Source of the DNA: a virus
Length of the DNA stretch: 32,228 bases
Direction: 5' to 3' (one strand)
Virus record (IMG/VR): IMGVR_UViG_3300033148_008281
Coordinates: 1-32,228 of that record
Position numbers and translations under genes: made by a program. This document shows positions 3,809 to 29,862 of this stretch, in pieces (position 1 is the first letter of the stretch; the number at the start of each line of letters is the position of its first letter). The notes beneath the pieces are model-generated. The model was not told the DNA's origin. It was given only the letters and a program-made list of their open reading frames with translations, and did not search any database.

Positions 3809-4756
3809 TCACGCCTCTATTAAATCACCACTTGGAGCCTCGGAGAACCATTTAATTTGCGGAAACTTACTCATTAAGAATTCCTTATAGAGATCGAGAT
3901 TGCCGATTGTTTTTAGGCTCCCTCCATCATAAACACATATATTTGGGAAGTCTTTCAGAATATCCAGTTTGGTTACCACTACTTCGTCTGGATTTACAAT
4001 TGAAAACGCATAACGGAGCTGATCCATATCATTCCAGTAACACCTCCTTGGTCTTCCGGTAGTAGTTCCGTATTCATTGCCCAAAACTGTCAAGTCCGGA
4101 ATTGGATCATAATGAGGAGGCCCATCACCAACGCGAGTGGTATACCCTTTCATAACGCCTATTGTGTGATAAATGCGGTGAGCCATAGAGGGCATAATAG
4201 AGGATGATGTAACATAAGGATAATGCCCATGATCCACATCTAGCATAATTCCTTGGGCTCCCTCAAACAAAGCAGACTCACTGTATGAAATGGGTGGCAA
4301 TCCTCTGTATAACTTGGGTTTTTCGGTCCCTGTGAAGAATTGTTTCGCCCTAATACCCTTTTTTAACGCCCTGTCAGCATATACATAAGCAATACCAGAT
4401 TTAGTTGTTCCCAGCCCGCTTCCACTTGAATCTAACTCCTTGTGTTTTGCCGAAATCATATGCACAGATTCATTGATGTATATATCACTAACCGACATGT
4501 TTAACGAAGAGAGTTCCCTTTTGAGTTTGGAGTAGTCTATAACCATACCGGCATCCAGCGCTATTTTCTTTCCAAACACTGCTCCCGCCGGAATATGATG
4601 AAGTTTGTGCACCTGCCCATCTAAATCATAAACGGTATGACCGGCATTTGGACCACCGCAAAACCGTATTGACCACTCGTAATCTTTTATGAAATATGCA
4701 CTTACACGTCCCTTTGCTTCGTCTCCATATTGTAATCCTATAATTACTGTTTTCAT
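3809..4756 (-). CDS. purA: adenylosuccinate synthetase, short archaeal-type
   Basis: 315 residues. The family makes adenylosuccinate from IMP, aspartate and GTP, the committed step to AMP. Visible motifs are the P-loop-like GDEAKGR near residue 11, keeping the catalytic Asp; NAGHTV near 35; GTTKSGI near 120; FEGAQGIMLDVDHGHYPYVTSS; TRVGDGP; TTGRPRR; and VVTKLDIL. It is much shorter than the ~430-residue bacterial enzyme and matches the size of archaeal PurA, the group that phage PurZ (dGMP-using) resembles. The start at 4756 is chosen over one five codons earlier because it forms ATGA with the upstream stop and has GGAAG eight bases before. It shares the array with a GMP reductase-like enzyme. 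Whether it uses IMP or dGMP cannot be told by eye. Confidence 0.88.
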   Translation of the reverse strand: MKTVIIGLQYGDEAKGRVSAYFIKDYEWSIRFCGGPNAGHTVYDLDGQVHKLHHIPAGAVFGKKIALDAGMVIDYSKLKRELSSLNMSVSDIYINESVHMISAKHKELDSSGSGLGTTKSGIAYVYADRALKKGIRAKQFFTGTEKPKLYRGLPPISYSESALFEGAQGIMLDVDHGHYPYVTSSSIMPSMAHRIYHTIGVMKGYTTRVGDGPPHYDPIPDLTVLGNEYGTTTGRPRRCYWNDMDQLRYAFSIVNPDEVVVTKLDILKDFPNICVYDGGSLKTIGNLDLYKEFLMSKFPQIKWFSEAPSGDLIEA

Positions 4757-5067
4757 TTTTTCGACTTCCATAGTTTTTTGTTTTTAATTGCCGCTCTAAC
4801 ACCATCTTCTCCATTTGATCTAAACTCATCTAGCAAATTTACAGCAAAATCTAACGACGTAGAACTATCCCAAAACATCTTATCTTTTACGTCCCCCAAA
4901 TCCGACAACAAAAATGAATATTTTCTCTTATGACAATCATGTGAAACCCCGACAGTCCATTGTGCCGTTAAGGGGTTAACACTGTCTAATTTCACGAACC
5001 AACAAGAATATCGAACATCTGAAAACTCTGCAGACATATCGAAATTATAAACATTACTTGATTTCAT
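4753..5067 (-). CDS. hypothetical protein, 104 aa
   Basis: Not recognised. It is coupled to purA by an ATGA overlap and has its own good site (GGGAG five bases before ATG). Several aromatic residues lie in the first half and an amphipathic helix with a basic tail closes it. Its position next to purA is the only hint of role. Confidence 0.65.
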   Translation of the reverse strand: MKSSNVYNFDMSAEFSDVRYSCWFVKLDSVNPLTAQWTVGVSHDCHKRKYSFLLSDLGDVKDKMFWDSSTSLDFAVNLLDEFRSNGEDGVRAAIKNKKLWKSKK

Positions 5068-5078
5068 TCAATCTCCCG

Positions 5079-5300
5079 TCATTTTACTATTAGCTCGTTC
5101 CAGTCAATTTTTATCTCAACCCGCTCCCCTGTGTCCAAAATAACAGAAATGCCCTCATCTTCTATAGTAAATCTTGTTATTTCACGATCGGGATGGGTAT
5201 CTTTTAAAAACTCTTCTATTATTTTTTTAAGTTCTTCAGAGTCTATCTCAACACTTTTAAACTCTTTCCCTATTGCCTCGGATAAAGTAATTGTTTTCAT
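5079..5300 (-). CDS. hypothetical acidic protein, 73 aa
   Basis: Not recognised. The sequence is charged and Glu-rich, with a helix (EELKKIIEEFLKD) followed by beta-like segments (RFTIEDEGISVILD, RVEIKIDW). GGGAG lies seven bases before the ATG. It is a typical small phage protein between the GroES-fusion gene and purA. Confidence 0.65.
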   Translation of the reverse strand: MKTITLSEAIGKEFKSVEIDSEELKKIIEEFLKDTHPDREITRFTIEDEGISVILDTGERVEIKIDWNELIVK

Positions 5301-5317
5301 TGAGTAACTCCCGCAGT

Positions 5318-5554
5318 TTATTTTTCTCCTAACATCTTTTTAATATCTTCTCCGGCCTTTTCTACTGCTTCTTTAGACGGATTCATGGGCCTTAAGTGAT
5401 CGACAAGCAAAACCAAAAGAATCGCCAAATCTTTTTCGGAGATTTGAGTGTTGTCTTCGATTCCGCGCTTTAAGGTGGAATAATGTTTCTCTACTTCCTC
5501 CCACCTATTCGACCCTTTATTTATCAGATCATCTATCATTTCAAAAAAGTTCAC
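5318..5554 (-). CDS. hypothetical helical protein, 78 aa
   Basis: Not recognised. It is predicted to be all helical and acidic, with a hydrophobic central helix (EKDLAILLVLLVDHL). It starts with GTG at 5554, overlapping the stop of the GIY-YIG/GroES gene (GTGA), with GAGGAGGAA just upstream, so it is probably translated in step with that gene. Confidence 0.65.
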   Translation of the reverse strand: MNFFEMIDDLINKGSNRWEEVEKHYSTLKRGIEDNTQISEKDLAILLVLLVDHLRPMNPSKEAVEKAGEDIKKMLGEK

Positions 5555-6102
5555 TCTTCCTCCTCATTTAAAATTCCAATTATTTCATCTTCATTAAATA
5601 TAAACACCTCCTGGTTTTTGTATCTAACAATTTGTCCTTTAAACTCCGCTATGTACACTCTATCCCCGACTTTAACACATGGAGTGATATATTTACCCAG
5701 ATGGTTTCTTTGTCCGGGCCCGACTGCAACAACCAGGCCGGTTTGGGCTCTTCCCTTTACTGTTTCTGGCAGGTGTAATCCGGATGCTGTTTGTTTTGCT
5801 TCATCCTTTTTTATAAACACACGATTAAACAATGGGTCTATTGGAAATGACATTATTTCGTACTCCTTTATCAATTTTTCTTTTTTAGCCTTACTGAACT
5901 TCTTAATTTTCGCCTCTTTAATAGACGCCGTACTACGATTTGTGGCACCCTCTTTGTATACTAAAACAAACGGAAGGTGAGATCTAACACACTTGCTACC
6001 ATGTCCTGTTGCGTGCGTTTTTAATCTCTTTTTCAAACAATTGGTTATCCCAGTATAATAAGCACCATTGGATAACCTTAACATATACACCAACCATGTC
6101 AT
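5551..6102 (-). CDS. GIY-YIG nuclease domain fused to GroES-like co-chaperonin
   Basis: 183 residues in one uninterrupted frame. Residues 1-80 match the UPF0213-type GIY-YIG fold: VYML and YYTGIT for the two signature strands, R26 in the helix and E63 in IKEAKIKKF for metal binding. Residues 84-183 match Cpn10/GroES: PIDPLFNRVFIKK at its start, a mobile-loop-like segment (EAKQTASGLHLPE), VVAVGPG, VKVGDRVYI and the closing EDEIIGIL. GroES caps a GroEL chamber during folding, and phages often encode their own version. Met84 lies nine bases after AAAGGAG, so a separate 100-residue GroES may also be made. No groEL is present in the window. I know of no described GIY-YIG/GroES protein. Confidence 0.85.
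   Translation of the reverse strand: MTWLVYMLRLSNGAYYTGITNCLKKRLKTHATGHGSKCVRSHLPFVLVYKEGATNRSTASIKEAKIKKFSKAKKEKLIKEYEIMSFPIDPLFNRVFIKKDEAKQTASGLHLPETVKGRAQTGLVVAVGPGQRNHLGKYITPCVKVGDRVYIAEFKGQIVRYKNQEVFIFNEDEIIGILNEEEE
5863..5869 (-). promoter_or_regulatory. internal ribosome binding site for a stand-alone GroES
   Basis: AAAGGAG lies nine bases before the in-frame ATG at 5853 (Met84 of the fusion). Initiation there yields a 100-residue protein, the normal size of GroES (about 97). The site sits in the codons linking the two domains, so one gene may give both the fusion and free co-chaperonin. Confidence 0.5.
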
Positions 6103-6103
6103 T

Positions 6104-6550
6104 TTAGAACATTACCTCGGGCGCATAATAATATCCAAGTCGAGTAATATTTGGTAAATGGTCGTCGAGTTTCAATAAGCCATCTATCAAACCATCGAGT
6201 TCTGGTAAATCATTAAGCATTGACTGTTTCTCAGTAAAAACAGATATTTTTTCTTTAATTATCCTATCATTACCCAGCACATTTATTATTTGAACGATTC
6301 TTTTGGCCTCGGTTTTCTTTTTTATAGGAATCATTAAGGCAAAATTCAAAATATCGTCATACTTTTTATTTTCTTGCGTCCCAACAACCAACATACCATT
6401 AAAATAATCCGCTATTATCTGGTTATTTGTTCGAATGTTTGATATCTTGGTGTCTTGTGATGTTTTATTGTACTTTCTAGCTATTACTCTAAGGTCTTGC
6501 TTTTTTAGAGATCTGCTAATAATCTCGACCCTGAATCCAATAAAAACCAT
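6104..6550 (-). CDS. hypothetical protein, 148 aa
   Basis: Not recognised. The start at 6550 is preferred over an earlier one inside the upstream gene, because AGGTG lies five bases before and it begins just after that gene's stop. The sequence is an alpha/beta mix with a basic N-terminus (RSLKKQDLRVIARKYNK). It sits between the IMPDH/GMPR-like gene and the GroES fusion, with one base to the next ATG. Confidence 0.6.
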   Translation of the reverse strand: MVFIGFRVEIISRSLKKQDLRVIARKYNKTSQDTKISNIRTNNQIIADYFNGMLVVGTQENKKYDDILNFALMIPIKKKTEAKRIVQIINVLGNDRIIKEKISVFTEKQSMLNDLPELDGLIDGLLKLDDHLPNITRLGYYYAPEVMF

Positions 6551-6558
6551 AAAAACAC

Positions 6559-7668
6559 CTATTTTTTGCCGTGCGGAGTTCCCTCTGTGTACCCCGATGA
6601 AGTTATTTTGACCCATTTTGCGTTGTATCTTAATTCCGTTAAATTAGTTGCCCCAGAATAACTGAGCCCTATTTGTAACGATTTACACATACTTTCTATA
6701 ATCTTTTTTGCGGATCGGCCGGTGTAGGGGATTTTTATAGATATGCCCTCACTAGGCAAACCCATTTGAGTTTTATTGAACCACTTTTCTCTCGCCGCGT
6801 CTGATGCCATACCGTGATAATATTTGTATAATTGGCCGTTTTCCTCTAAAAATTCGCCCGGTGCTTCCTCTGTGCCTGCTAGCATTGAACCCATCATAAC
6901 CGCATCAGCACCGATAGCAATAGATTTCACAATATCAGAAGAAGAACGAATACCGCCATCAGCAATAATAGCTACATTGGGAAAGGCTTTGGTTGTGCTA
7001 TATGTGTATCCGTCTTGTGGCTCTGTACAACCACCATATCCCAAATTTTGACAAGTTTTAATTCGCACACAGTCTTCGATGGCTGATAGTTGGGGCACAC
7101 CATGTCCTGTGACCATTCGAGTTGTACATACCGATCCACTTCCTATACCCACTCGAATAGAATTAGTTCCTGCTTCGGCCAATTTAAGTGCACCATCAAA
7201 AGTGGCCACATTTCCAGACATTATTAAAGCATCCGAAAACATTTCTCTAATTATTTCAACCGCTTTAATACAATTTGCATTATGCCCATTAGCCACATCT
7301 ATACAGAAATTGCGAGCGCCCACGTCATACAACCTTTGTGATCTTTCCAATAAAGAATTAAGGCCCACGGCAAAATAAATGCCTTTTAAACTCGAACGTT
7401 TGGTAAGATTTTTAGCCATTTGGACCTGAGACTCTATACCCATGTATCTATGAATCACAGCAACTCCGCCTAAATCCACCATAGCGACAGCCATTTTTTC
7501 TTCTGTAACGGTATGCATTGGCGCAGATACAATGGGAACAGAAAAGTTAAAATCTTTTATTTGAGTTTGCACCGATGGATCTTTGCGAGATTTAACCGCT
7601 GAATAAACCGGTGCAAGGATAAAATCATCAAAAGTATATGCTCTGGGCGCGGTGTTCAATTTGTTCAC
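6559..7668 (-). CDS. IMP dehydrogenase/GMP reductase family enzyme, CBS-less
   Basis: 369 residues forming the (beta/alpha)8 barrel of this family. Visible are FDDFILAP at the start, VSAPMHTVTE, the phosphate-binding GIGSGSVCTTR with the catalytic Cys, IADGGIRSSSDIVKSIAIGADAVMMGSMLAGTEE, and YHGMAS. The CBS pair normally inserted in IMPDH is absent, and the Arg-Tyr dyad of the IMPDH flap is not seen (REKWFN instead). Length and flap favour GMP reductase (GMP plus NADPH to IMP and ammonia). With PurA nearby this would turn guanine into adenine nucleotides. A CBS-less IMPDH remains possible. It starts with GTG two bases after the upstream stop. Confidence 0.8.
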   Translation of the reverse strand: MNKLNTAPRAYTFDDFILAPVYSAVKSRKDPSVQTQIKDFNFSVPIVSAPMHTVTEEKMAVAMVDLGGVAVIHRYMGIESQVQMAKNLTKRSSLKGIYFAVGLNSLLERSQRLYDVGARNFCIDVANGHNANCIKAVEIIREMFSDALIMSGNVATFDGALKLAEAGTNSIRVGIGSGSVCTTRMVTGHGVPQLSAIEDCVRIKTCQNLGYGGCTEPQDGYTYSTTKAFPNVAIIADGGIRSSSDIVKSIAIGADAVMMGSMLAGTEEAPGEFLEENGQLYKYYHGMASDAAREKWFNKTQMGLPSEGISIKIPYTGRSAKKIIESMCKSLQIGLSYSGATNLTELRYNAKWVKITSSGYTEGTPHGKK

Positions 7669-11332: not shown

Positions 11333-12100
11333 TTATGTCTTCACAGATTCGCATCTATACCCCTTATGATGCTTACGTCTTCCGAAAGCCACTGCTATCA
11401 TGTGTTGTCGACATAAATTATTTTCTCTACAATATTTCGCCAAATTTTTAATTATTTTCGAGGTTCCATTTGGCTTTATTATTTTATATTCTTTGGCTCG
11501 ACGCTCATTTCCAACCATTCTTTGGCGCATTTTTTCTGGCATTTTCTTTCCCATATGTGACTTGCTAAGGTTATCTCTGTGAGTTTGCGATTTAACTTTG
11601 CCAGTTTGTGCTTTGGACATTTTAATTTTAGTTTCCTCTGAGTGCCTATTGCCCATTAATCCTTTGGATATTTTTAATTTATGAGATTCCGATAGAGGCA
11701 CTCCTTTTTTTCCTTTATTAAACTCTATCATATATGGCCGGCTCCTTCCTTTAAGAGCCTCAGATATCTTTTTCTTAGTTTCTGGCACCATAGGGGTATT
11801 TCTGCCCCCTGGTGTAGAATTGTAACCGCCTTTATAGGTGTCAAATAAAGAAACAAAAAAGGTTTCCATTTCATTCAAAAATCTAATTGGAATATCATCG
11901 CCCACTATACCCCAAATCCAATCGCTTTTATCATATTTTTTGAGAGCCCGAGCGAATTTATGATCATTATATTTAGCACTTTCGTGATGCTGATAGACCC
12001 TTTCGTCCAATTCCTTTATAGTTTGCCCAACGTAAAATTTATTACTTTTGATATTGGCCGCTACATAAATGATGCCAATTTTTGATTTTTTTGAACTCAT
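11333..12100 (-). CDS. GIY-YIG homing endonuclease with NUMOD3 repeats
   Basis: 255 residues. The N-terminal nuclease carries IIYVAANIKSNKFYVGQT (GIY and YIG strands), an ELDERVYQH helix and an acidic NEMETFF position. The middle holds three or more NUMOD3-type DNA-binding repeats (S-x-x-H-K-x-K-I-S-K-x-x-x-G). The tail has an HTH-like end (SKIIKNLAKYCRENNL) and KGYRCE. Such Seg/I-TevI-like enzymes cut DNA and spread their own gene. It is free-standing between the gene after nrdJ and phoH. The start at 12100 follows the upstream stop by two bases, with GGAAT before it. Confidence 0.88.
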   Translation of the reverse strand: MSSKKSKIGIIYVAANIKSNKFYVGQTIKELDERVYQHHESAKYNDHKFARALKKYDKSDWIWGIVGDDIPIRFLNEMETFFVSLFDTYKGGYNSTPGGRNTPMVPETKKKISEALKGRSRPYMIEFNKGKKGVPLSESHKLKISKGLMGNRHSEETKIKMSKAQTGKVKSQTHRDNLSKSHMGKKMPEKMRQRMVGNERRAKEYKIIKPNGTSKIIKNLAKYCRENNLCRQHMIAVAFGRRKHHKGYRCESVKT

Positions 12101-12102
12101 TT

Positions 12103-12465
12103 TTATTCCGCCGGGCATATGCTCCATTCATTTAAGTGTATCTCATAATAAACCCCGCTTTCGTCTATTTTTTTTATCCGATTTGGCATCTTCCACTGCC
12201 CGATTAAATTCTCCTTTTCTGCCGGAAGCCAACCCTGATTAAAATTATCATCGTACCAAGCCTTTTTAAACACATCGATTTCGCCATTAGAATATAGCAC
12301 TACGTCCACCCCCAGGTCTTCCATTTTGGACCTATAATCGCAAATATTCTCGTCCAATGCCCCTTCTGCACCCAAATATATTACTATTTGCTCTATCCAT
12401 TCTTGACGAGATTCTTTTATCATTTCATTGGCATCAGATAAGTTGCACAAAAAGATAGCAGTCAT
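12103..12465 (-). CDS. hypothetical protein, 120 aa
   Basis: Not recognised. An alpha/beta protein with an acidic middle and many Trp in the second half (KKAWYDDNFNQGWLP, GQWKMPNR). The ATG at 12465 follows the nrdJ stop by two bases, so it is co-translated with the reductase. A GTG four codons earlier is less likely. Confidence 0.6.
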   Translation of the reverse strand: MTAIFLCNLSDANEMIKESRQEWIEQIVIYLGAEGALDENICDYRSKMEDLGVDVVLYSNGEIDVFKKAWYDDNFNQGWLPAEKENLIGQWKMPNRIKKIDESGVYYEIHLNEWSICPAE

Positions 12466-21429: not shown

Positions 21430-22731
21430 TTATTTCCGTCGCCGGTCAACTATCTTTTTAGAATTGCGTTTAATCTTTCCCATTGCTGAGTTCTTATTCT
21501 TGATTTTATTATACATTTGGTCACTGGCTGATGCAACTTGAGTTTTGCCAACATCTATGGTCATATTAGATGCTCGATTGTCCTCTTTTTGCTTAAGCCT
21601 GTCCATATGTCTTTCGGCTTCTAACTTTAACTCCTTGACTCTTTCTTCCGGCAGTCCTAATCCACTAAACAATGAATACACTCTAATGGTTTCCTGTCCC
21701 GGAATATTATAGATTCCCCTAAAAATCTTTGTACCATCTGAGCAAATCTTATTTAACATCGAAAACCCGAACTCTAAGTTGGCCGCAGGAATTTGCTCTA
21801 AAATCTCCTTACCGCCAGTGATAATAACGCCAGCAGTTCGGGTTTGTTTAAGGTCGAATTCGTCAGCCAGCAATCCATTTTCGAGATTTTGGACAATAGC
21901 AGAGGCAATAGCCTCCTCTTCAAGATAATCTTTGACCTCTATCATGCCATATAAAGCACAGTCGTTGCCTAGTAGCGTTGCAACAAAGTCCATGCTGTCG
22001 AGTGATGTATATTCTGACGGTGTAGCAGAAAGCATATTAAACAGATGTAATGGCTCAACAATCGTCTCATTGGCTACATCCCAGAATTTTGATACAGGAA
22101 GTCCGGGGTGCAATATTTCTATTTTGGCATTATCTACTACGATCAAAGAACTAATCTCGTCACCTTTGGCCATTTTTGATAACTGGGATAGGGTCTGAAT
22201 ACTATTATGTTTAGCCAGGGTGTCTTCCGACGACAAGGGGAGAATATAAATCATTACAATCGGTTTCCCCATTTGAGACATAATTCTAACCATATTCTCC
22301 GCGCCGCCTGATCCACTTCCACCACCACCAGAAGTCGCCAACACAAGTATCTCATTATCGGTAAAATTATCTTGTAGCATCTCCAAAATAGGCCCAGAAT
22401 ACTCACTGACGGCCGCAGCACCTGTATCTCTATCCTTTGCAGCCCCGCCCAAAGCGTAGTCGAGAAACATTTTTTGTTTCTCTGGTATGCGTATTAAACT
22501 GAGATCTTGGAGGGCGGTATTCAAAATTATACTATCATAACCCCTGTTGTAAAACTGCTCTGCTATTCTACTTCCAGCCTGTCCAATTCCCACCACACCA
22601 AAATTAACGCTTCGATCCTGTTGCTCCACTAATAATGTCGCCATATCACCCTCCACTAAAATTTTTCGTTTGAGTTCTTTTTCGAGTTTTTCATTTTCTC
22701 GCATTATATCATTAAAATCTTCGTTTGTCAT
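21430..22731 (-). CDS. tubulin/FtsZ-superfamily GTPase
   Basis: 433 residues. An N-terminal charged, coiled-coil-like segment (1-40) is followed by the GTPase: VGIGQAGSRIAEQF (T1 loop), ILNTALQDLS (T2-like), ATSGGGGSGSGG (the glycine-rich tubulin signature, near 133-143), and a later DSMDFVATLL that aligns with the T7 catalytic loop. The C-terminus is very basic (KIKRNSKKIVDRRRK). Phage relatives such as PhuZ and TubZ form filaments that move DNA or centre the phage nucleus. The long N-terminal helix is unlike those. ATGA overlap with rmlB and GGAG before the ATG support this start. Confidence 0.8.
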   Translation of the reverse strand: MTNEDFNDIMRENEKLEKELKRKILVEGDMATLLVEQQDRSVNFGVVGIGQAGSRIAEQFYNRGYDSIILNTALQDLSLIRIPEKQKMFLDYALGGAAKDRDTGAAAVSEYSGPILEMLQDNFTDNEILVLATSGGGGSGSGGAENMVRIMSQMGKPIVMIYILPLSSEDTLAKHNSIQTLSQLSKMAKGDEISSLIVVDNAKIEILHPGLPVSKFWDVANETIVEPLHLFNMLSATPSEYTSLDSMDFVATLLGNDCALYGMIEVKDYLEEEAIASAIVQNLENGLLADEFDLKQTRTAGVIITGGKEILEQIPAANLEFGFSMLNKICSDGTKIFRGIYNIPGQETIRVYSLFSGLGLPEERVKELKLEAERHMDRLKQKEDNRASNMTIDVGKTQVASASDQMYNKIKNKNSAMGKIKRNSKKIVDRRRK

Positions 22732-23687
22732 TTCCAACTCCATGTATTTTTTTTGTACCACCCTACTACATATTTCAGAGCTTCGTCGAATTCATACTTC
22801 GGATTCCACCCAAGTTTCTTAATTTTATCACAATTTAATGAATACCTAAAATCATGACCAAGACGATCGGGAATAAATTCAATCATTCGCTCATCTTTCC
22901 CCATCACCTCTATTATTTTCTTCACCAAATCAATGTTCTTAATGTCCACCGCGCTCCCTATGTTGTAGATTTCTTTATTTTTCCCTGACTGAATTATGGT
23001 TTGTAGGGCAAAAAACACATCTTTGACAAAAATCCACTCTCTTTCTTGTAATCCTTTTCCAAACACCTCGCACTTTTTATCTTGCAGTAGGTTGGTAATA
23101 CACCTGGGGATCATTTTTTCTTTATTCTGTCGCCCACCAAAAATATTACAACATCGGGTTATTGTTATTGGAAGGTCATAAGTGCTAATGTATGATTGAC
23201 ACAGAAGATCCGCGGCACCTTTTGTTGCGGAATACGGGTTACGAGGGGCCATTTTATCATTTTCGAGGGATGATCCGCTTAAAATTTGCTCATAAACCTC
23301 ATCGGTCGAAAACTGAATAAATCTTTCAGGACAATGAACGCTTCTAATGGCTTCAAGCATACTATGAACGCCAACAACGTTTGAAAATACGAACTCCCGC
23401 GAATTTTGTATGCTGTTGTCTACATGAGATGACGCCGCGCCGTTTATTACTATATCTGGCTTTTCTATATCAAATAATTTGGAAACAAACTCATAATCTG
23501 CTATATCACCCAAATAAAATCTATGCCTGCGGGTCTGAACATTTGGATTATAGCCAATGTTTAAAAGAGAACCCGCGTCAGTTAATTTATCGACACTGAT
23601 AATCTCATAATTTGTATGCTGTTGGAAATATAACAGCATATTAGAAAAAACGAAGCCAGCCGATCCCGTTAATAAGATTTTAGTCAT
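22728..23687 (-). CDS. dTDP-glucose 4,6-dehydratase-like (RmlB family)
   Basis: 319 residues of the extended SDR fold. TGSAGFVFS (residues 7-15) replaces the usual TGGAGFIGS, and TDEVY (128-132) and YSATK (152-156) hold the catalytic Asp, Glu, Tyr and Lys of dehydratases. DRLGHDFRYSLNCDKI near the end is the signature of this sub-family. It would turn dTDP-glucose into the 4-keto-6-deoxy sugar, following the RmlA-like neighbour made just before it. Its stop overlaps the tubulin gene's start. Confidence 0.88.
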   Translation of the reverse strand: MTKILLTGSAGFVFSNMLLYFQQHTNYEIISVDKLTDAGSLLNIGYNPNVQTRRHRFYLGDIADYEFVSKLFDIEKPDIVINGAASSHVDNSIQNSREFVFSNVVGVHSMLEAIRSVHCPERFIQFSTDEVYEQILSGSSLENDKMAPRNPYSATKGAADLLCQSYISTYDLPITITRCCNIFGGRQNKEKMIPRCITNLLQDKKCEVFGKGLQEREWIFVKDVFFALQTIIQSGKNKEIYNIGSAVDIKNIDLVKKIIEVMGKDERMIEFIPDRLGHDFRYSLNCDKIKKLGWNPKYEFDEALKYVVGWYKKNTWSWK

Positions 23688-28575: not shown

Positions 28576-28826
28576 CTCGCCTCGCGTTCATTTATCATTC
28601 GTTCGATGTTTTGATATTTTTGAGTTGCTATTACAAAACATTCTTCCTTTTTCATAATATATTCAAGTAATTTTTGAGCACTATTGGGGTCGCGAATATA
28701 AAATCTTTTAGCCAAACTTAAAGTTCTTTTTTCCATTTCACTTAAATATTTGGCATATTGACATATATTGCGTTCAAAATTATCGCAAACTACCAAACAA
28801 TATAAAAATCTAATCAAATTATCCAT
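28572..28826 (-). CDS. hypothetical helical protein, 84 aa
   Basis: Not recognised. It is helical, with charged segments (EMEKRTLSLAKRFY, KYQNIERMINEREAR) and a Cys-containing N-terminal hydrophobic helix (FLYCLVVC). The ATG overlaps the end of the saccharopine-dehydrogenase-like gene by eight bases. Confidence 0.6.
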   Translation of the reverse strand: MDNLIRFLYCLVVCDNFERNICQYAKYLSEMEKRTLSLAKRFYIRDPNSAQKLLEYIMKKEECFVIATQKYQNIERMINEREAR

Positions 28827-29862
28827 TGGCTCTCAAAAACGGGTAGTGTGTTAAATTGCCTGTGCCAAACATTATATTTTTGACCGCCAACTTATCTAAT
28901 ATGTGCGTGTAGCAATCATCATCTTGCGCCAATATTTCTGGTGGAATAATACCCCAGCCATCTACAAAATCATCAGCCAATATTTGAGCAAAAACCGAAC
29001 AAGAAAAAGCAGTAGCACGAGCCATAGCGCTCACCCCATCTTCTGGTTTAACTATTAACACCTCTTCTTTGCCATCTGCAATCACTCGCATCACCAGAAC
29101 ATCTTCAATATTCGAGCATTTTTGTATAAACTCTATAAATTTACCTTCTTCAACAAGACGCTTTGTTTCACTCATGTGTCCCGCACGTCGTATAGTTTTC
29201 TCCTCCAATGTTTGTACGGACCCATAGTTAGACAACATAGTTCTCAATCCGTCCGTGTAAAATGCCTCCAATTTGCCTATGCCGTCGACTTCAAACGTCT
29301 CTATGCCCGACAAAACCTCTCTTTCCTCTACGTGCCCATCTTTTATTATTCGAGCCGGACGCAAAAACTCCTCTAACAAATCCTCGGGAGACCAAGTCAA
29401 AGAATATCCGAGTGGTACATTTGAGTCCTTCGCAAACCCGCCCACCTGAACGCTTACTTTTTTTGGCGATTGTGTGTGAATTGCTCTGCCTGCTATTAAA
29501 TTACTCAGCCCTGGTGCAACGCCACAATCTGGTAATATTTTGACTCTTTTTTGTTTGGCGTCGGCATCTAAATCTAAAACATTTTCCTCACAATAGGATA
29601 AATCAACACAATTCTTTTCCGCCATAATACAGGTTTTAATAGTTTCATATCCCAATCTGGACGGCAACGCACAAACAACCAAATCTGCTTGTTTTATTAC
29701 ATCTAGTTTTTTGTATGGATTAGATAAATCAACTTGTATAAACTTTGCGTATTTAATGTTGGGATTGGAAACATCAGATACTAATACATCATAGCCACTT
29801 TCAATCAAATCTTGTGCTATTATTTTACCTTGTCTTCCGGTACCCAACACGATTATTTGCAT
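28819..29862 (-). CDS. saccharopine dehydrogenase-like oxidoreductase
   Basis: 347 residues. The N-terminal Rossmann fold starts IIVLGTGRQGKIIAQDL and DCGVAPGLSNLIAGR is the family signature near residue 112. The family includes saccharopine and carboxynorspermidine dehydrogenases, which join or split amino-acid conjugates with NAD(P). Its substrate here is not known; lysine-, polyamine- or sugar-acid work is possible. It overlaps the coiled-coil gene by ten bases, and GGAGG lies four bases before the ATG. Confidence 0.8.
   Translation of the reverse strand: MQIIVLGTGRQGKIIAQDLIESGYDVLVSDVSNPNIKYAKFIQVDLSNPYKKLDVIKQADLVVCALPSRLGYETIKTCIMAEKNCVDLSYCEENVLDLDADAKQKRVKILPDCGVAPGLSNLIAGRAIHTQSPKKVSVQVGGFAKDSNVPLGYSLTWSPEDLLEEFLRPARIIKDGHVEEREVLSGIETFEVDGIGKLEAFYTDGLRTMLSNYGSVQTLEEKTIRRAGHMSETKRLVEEGKFIEFIQKCSNIEDVLVMRVIADGKEEVLIVKPEDGVSAMARATAFSCSVFAQILADDFVDGWGIIPPEILAQDDDCYTHILDKLAVKNIMFGTGNLTHYPFLRANG

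Follow-up and report, generated by a model that had tools for sequence, protein, structure and literature searches.

A single open reading frame (ORF) in a viral contig joins a GIY-YIG domain of the UPF0213/Slx1-like type to a full-length GroES (Cpn10) co-chaperonin, with no stop between the two. The window, by which we mean the whole 32,228-base stretch analyzed (virus record IMGVR_UViG_3300033148_008281), is a single metagenomic contig. That one open frame should match two complete domains is beyond chance, and the ORF is real as a sequence feature. GIY-YIG/GroES is new as a pairing. The ORF is probably an in-frame merger of adjacent nuclease and groES genes in a packed phage operon, a merger that most likely carries no specific link to chaperonin function.

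Domain content and coding signal of the ORF

The initial annotation described an uninterrupted frame of 183 codons at positions 5551 to 6102 with a GIY-YIG signature in its first part and a full-length GroES in its last 100 or so residues. The frame is indeed open throughout, running from ATG to TGA on the minus strand, the annotation having named no strand (Table 1). Pfam matches GIY-YIG at residues 3 to 75 (E 9.4e-14) and Cpn10 at residues 88 to 177 (E 1.3e-21), the latter covering positions 2 to 92 of the 93 in PF00166; both E-values are well past the curated cut-offs. PHROGs likewise identifies the second half as co-chaperonin GroES (PHROG 3188, E 2.2e-16). Among solved structures, the one nearest to the nuclease half is the UPF0213 protein BH0048 (PDB 1zg2, E 5e-10), with 1ywl also among the best, and a profile built from viral relatives of this half matches 1zg2 with an E of 1.3e-28. 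The GroES half matches a bacterial GroES (PDB 8wuw, E 3.3e-13).

The signature residues named in the annotation (VY, YTG, R26, and E63) are found as V5-Y6, Y16-T17-G18, R26, and E63, and are invariant across the viral alignment; Y6, Y16, R26, H30, and E63 are all present, H30 being invariant as well. The first domain is a UPF0213/Slx1-like GIY-YIG domain and a predicted nuclease. A homing endonuclease identity was ruled out for this domain, which is of the UPF0213 type and has no NUMOD match. The window's other GIY-YIG gene, in contrast, does have a NUMOD match; this homing-endonuclease-like GIY-YIG/NUMOD3 gene (11333 to 12127, minus strand) lies between PhoH-like and ribonucleotide reductase genes. 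The GroES portion also proved to be full-length, comprising 100 amino acids (M84 to E183) with the mobile-loop segment included. By its sequence, the second domain is a complete Cpn10 co-chaperonin, with putative heptamer formation and GroEL binding. AlphaFold2 run on the single sequence of the ORF product gave an unusable model (pLDDT 33).

Frame-0 codon log-odds are positive across the junction and most of both domains, and the other frames contain stops. In the junction block (codons 73 to 84), frame 0 scores +3.3, and the other two frames score -10.0 (with three stops) and +1.4. Because the coding signal keeps to one frame on either side of the junction, a frameshift within the GIY-YIG or Cpn10 domain was ruled out. 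Stop-codon recoding was similarly ruled out as the cause of the join, since all three stops are in normal use in the contig (TAA 21, TGA 15, TAG 11).

Table 1. Coordinates of the ORF, its domains, its junction elements, and the neighboring genes in the window
Feature	Position	Strand	Remarks
Upstream gene	6104..6616	minus	stop 1 nt before ORF start
ORF, GIY-YIG (residues 1-83) and GroES (84-183) in frame	5551..6102	minus	ATG start, TGA stop, 183 codons
GIY-YIG domain PF01541, UPF0213/Slx1-like type, residues 3-75	5878..6096	minus	Pfam, PDB 1zg2
AAAGGAG Shine-Dalgarno-like site inside ORF	5863..5869	minus	9 nt ahead of GroES ATG
In-frame internal ATG (M84), probable own start of GroES	5851..5853	minus	Shine-Dalgarno, domain boundary
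Cpn10/GroES domain PF00166, residues 88-177	5572..5841	minus	Pfam, PHROG 3188, PDB 8wuw
Small downstream gene	5318..5554	minus	GTG start overlaps GroES stop (GTGA)

The junction and its surroundings in the contig

The nuclease domain ends at about residue 80 and GroES starts at M84 (MSFPIDPLFNRVFIKK...), with a linker of about 8 residues between the two domains. The DNA at the junction reads AAAGGAG TACGAAATA ATG, so that a strong Shine-Dalgarno-like site within the ORF precedes the GroES start by 9 nt. Matches of at least 6 nt to the Shine-Dalgarno consensus stand before 7 of the 47 listed gene starts, before 5 of the 186 internal in-frame ATGs (M84 included), and before 1 of 386 ATGs on the opposite strand. 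The site before M84 is unpaired in the minimum-energy predicted RNA fold. The ORF's own start, M1, has only a weak GAGGT at a spacing of 11 nt. Taken together, these features suggest that M84 is a probable independent start of GroES, used by predicted internal initiation.

The same stretch of DNA bears on a second explanation, in which the nuclease gene lost its stop through an assembly error at one base or through a transient mutation, the two genes being separate in the real phage population. We consider this unlikely, although it accounts for several details. An out-of-frame TAA overlaps the GroES ATG as TAATG (5855 to 5851), an arrangement that two further listed genes of this contig share at their starts, as would suit two separate genes. 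Against an error, frame 0 carries the best coding signal on either side of the junction, and LIKEY, the residues directly before it, resembles the tail of a relative (IIKEY, in L121). Any base error would therefore be confined to the last few nuclease codons. The junction itself contains no long homopolymer, though there is a stretch of six A some 12 codons upstream of it.

The contig is tightly packed, 33 of its 46 gene junctions being an overlap of at most 25 nt or a gap of at most 15 nt. The ORF lies between an adenylosuccinate synthetase-like gene, with the Asp of the GDE motif kept, and an IMPDH/GMP reductase-like gene (3809 to 7668, minus strand), which suggests a purine-nucleotide module. 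No GroEL gene is found within the window.

Several other features of the contig are worth recording. A Tubulin/FtsZ-family protein resembling PhuZ/TubZ is encoded at 21430 to 22761 (minus strand), and tblastn against 50,697 phage records gave no match to it. At 28819 to 29862 (minus strand) there is a gene resembling saccharopine dehydrogenase, which is unusual for a phage. Positions 1 to 2100 have a GC content of about 50%, compared with 33 to 42% in the remaining contig, and contain no obvious phage gene. Neither Rfam nor blastn against phage records gave a match for this region, which may be an insert of foreign origin, untranslated sequence, or the product of a chimeric join.

Relatives of the two domains

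The domain order was sought in other phages from both sides of the junction, and no second example was found. Viral GroES relatives numbered 104 (24 loci came from scanning with one sequence and 80 from scanning with an alignment, a few contigs being in both), and none of these other loci encodes a UPF0213-type GIY-YIG in frame with GroES. Their N-terminal extensions do not exceed 33 residues, except at one locus (L025), where an 84-residue open stretch gives no GIY-YIG match. A GIY-YIG gene of a different, homing type occupies the space between phage groES and groEL at another locus (L087:3328-3948).

From the nuclease side, 70 other viral UPF0213 relatives were collected (68 viral loci and two phage records), and Cpn10 lies near the nuclease gene in none of them. 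All but two of these ORFs (68/70) end no more than 25 residues past the end of the domain, indicating that the frame in the window continues beyond the normal end of the nuclease. GroES is also present in 4 of 23 other virus records with such a nuclease gene, always as a separate gene. The two genes are about 5 kb apart in G022 and about 173 kb apart in LR756508, with G038 (about 27 kb) and G040 (about 30 kb) in between; among records with both genes, no relative has them adjacent.

Both families are common in 285 Omnitrophota genomes, and none among the matches listed covers both domains. One Omnitrophota Cpn10 with a 223-residue open frame (L198) was rejected as a candidate, as no GIY-YIG match was obtained upstream of the Cpn10 and that part resembles spurious read-through of high-GC sequence. 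Close relatives of the virus were sought via P0001, its two halves, the IMPDH/GMP reductase, the PurA-like protein, the tubulin, and DnaB, and these searches returned distant matches only, with no sister or ancestral junction. A blastn comparison of the DNA near the ORF with phage records gave no match. Further, a literature search found no description of a phage GIY-YIG/GroES fusion. The statement in the initial annotation that no protein with this order is described thus holds within the literature, viral, phage, plasmid, and sampled-genome searches. The architecture is absent from the viral contigs, phages, plasmids, and genomes sampled (for Omnitrophota, from the matches listed), and no recurrent GIY-YIG-GroES fusion family across independent genomes emerges from them.

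The nuclease family does join in frame to other proteins. The two of the 70 viral UPF0213 ORFs that read on in frame (L183 and L137) have partners that start near a Met. In the first (L183:2998-3843), the frame continues past the UPF0213 GIY-YIG for about 200 residues, which belong to an AdoMet-methyltransferase-like protein (phrog_19090) encoded by a stand-alone gene in haloviruses. In the second (L137:2983-3435), it is followed by a small charged protein of about 65 residues; this join is possibly an assembly error, because its junction comes after a long run of A. In an Omnitrophota genome (L199:1621-3492), the frame of a UPF0213 GIY-YIG continues into a complete TrpE, component I of anthranilate synthase. 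The joined cases are few (the window, L183, L137, and L199), each is on one assembled contig, and the partners are unrelated to one another. The methyltransferase could be a meaningful partner of the nuclease in L183, a join that recalls the methyltransferase-nuclease fusions of a 2006 superfamily survey (PMC1564403).

These comparisons also weigh on both sides of the explanation by base error or short-lived stop loss. The join is on one contig only, no close relative of the virus turned up in our searches, and the nuclease domain usually ends where this frame reads on, points that speak for a lost stop. On the other hand, further in-frame joins of the UPF0213 family, at viral loci and in Omnitrophota, are known.

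Probable in-frame merger, its possible function, and known systems

An in-frame merger of two neighbors therefore remains our preferred explanation. A small stand-alone UPF0213/Slx1-like nuclease gene and groES would have stood back to back in a tight operon, the nuclease gene having no stop ahead of the groES start and the groES start falling in the same frame. Under ordinary polycistronic translation, ribosomes beginning at M84 would make a normal 100-residue GroES, and ribosomes beginning at M1 would probably make some GIY-YIG-GroES protein. The GroES ring caps GroEL, and the long protein may assemble into such a ring or may just carry a putatively active nuclease. The merger does not appear to be specific to the chaperonin, since other members of the UPF0213 family are joined in frame with downstream genes of unrelated kinds. 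Both domains nonetheless keep their conserved residues, the catalytic positions are retained, and the frame is intact, which argues against a merger and nothing more and indicates that the long product could be functional.

The initial annotation offered two readings, a stable read-through of two genes and a nuclease tethered to a chaperonin ring. We favor the former and disfavor the latter because GroES has its own Shine-Dalgarno site and ATG, because the linker is so short, and because several unrelated neighbors are joined to this nuclease family. As a dedicated protein, the fusion would form GroES heptamers bearing up to seven GIY-YIG nucleases at the GroEL lid, possibly guarding, degrading, or repairing DNA near folding complexes. 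Both domains look complete, and the chloroplast co-chaperonins Cpn20 and Cpn23 (PDB 7ekq) indicate that Cpn10 tolerates an N-terminal neighbor, making a mixed ring conceivable. However, the pairing is missing from the 104 other viral GroES genes, the 70 other viral UPF0213 genes, and the Omnitrophota matches listed, the linker has only about 8 residues, the internal start would yield free GroES regardless, and the partners of joined UPF0213 domains have nothing in common. We therefore consider such a dedicated fusion highly improbable. A selected GIY-YIG-GroES acting on the infected cell's GroEL lid, in a ring of short and long subunits produced by internal initiation, seems just as doubtful.

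A nuclease-bearing chaperonin cap would represent a novel type of phage protein, provided that the long product is both made and retained. Even otherwise, the ORF indicates that small GIY-YIG nuclease genes can fuse in frame with whichever gene comes next. Reading a functional link into such an architecture would therefore call for a second independent example.

The first domain closely follows the UPF0213/Slx1-like nucleases (1zg2, 1ywl, and the Slx-1 cluster of PMC1564403). Residues 3 to 79 align with 1zg2, and the pattern of VY, YTG, R, H, and E is shared, as is the usual end of the domain. These nucleases normally stand alone at about 85 to 100 residues, whereas the frame in the window reads on into GroES. 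Similarly, the second domain has in common with bacterial and phage GroES (Cpn10; PHROG 3188) its start, the mobile-loop region TASGLHLPE, and the VVAVGPG and VKVGDRV motifs, but the frame adds an in-frame N-terminal extension of 83 residues. GroES is otherwise a stand-alone chain of about 100 residues; the frame here has 183, although the strong internal start would yield a GroES of the usual 100. The chloroplast structure 7ekq, which is among the structure matches of the ORF product, offers a partial parallel, as Cpn20 and Cpn23 have a Cpn10 unit with more chain directly ahead of it. The extra part of Cpn20 is another Cpn10 unit and that of Cpn23 is a long chain, however, and neither is a nuclease.

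The closest precedent for the join itself is found in PMC1564403, where fusions of Slx1-like GIY-YIG domains with methyltransferases are described, together with the caution that isolated fusions may reflect domain mobility and not functional linkage. The word "chaperonin" does not occur in the text of that survey. As in the window, an Slx1-like GIY-YIG domain is joined there to an unrelated full-length protein; the partners in the survey are methyltransferases or other domains, whereas the partner in the window is a chaperonin cap.
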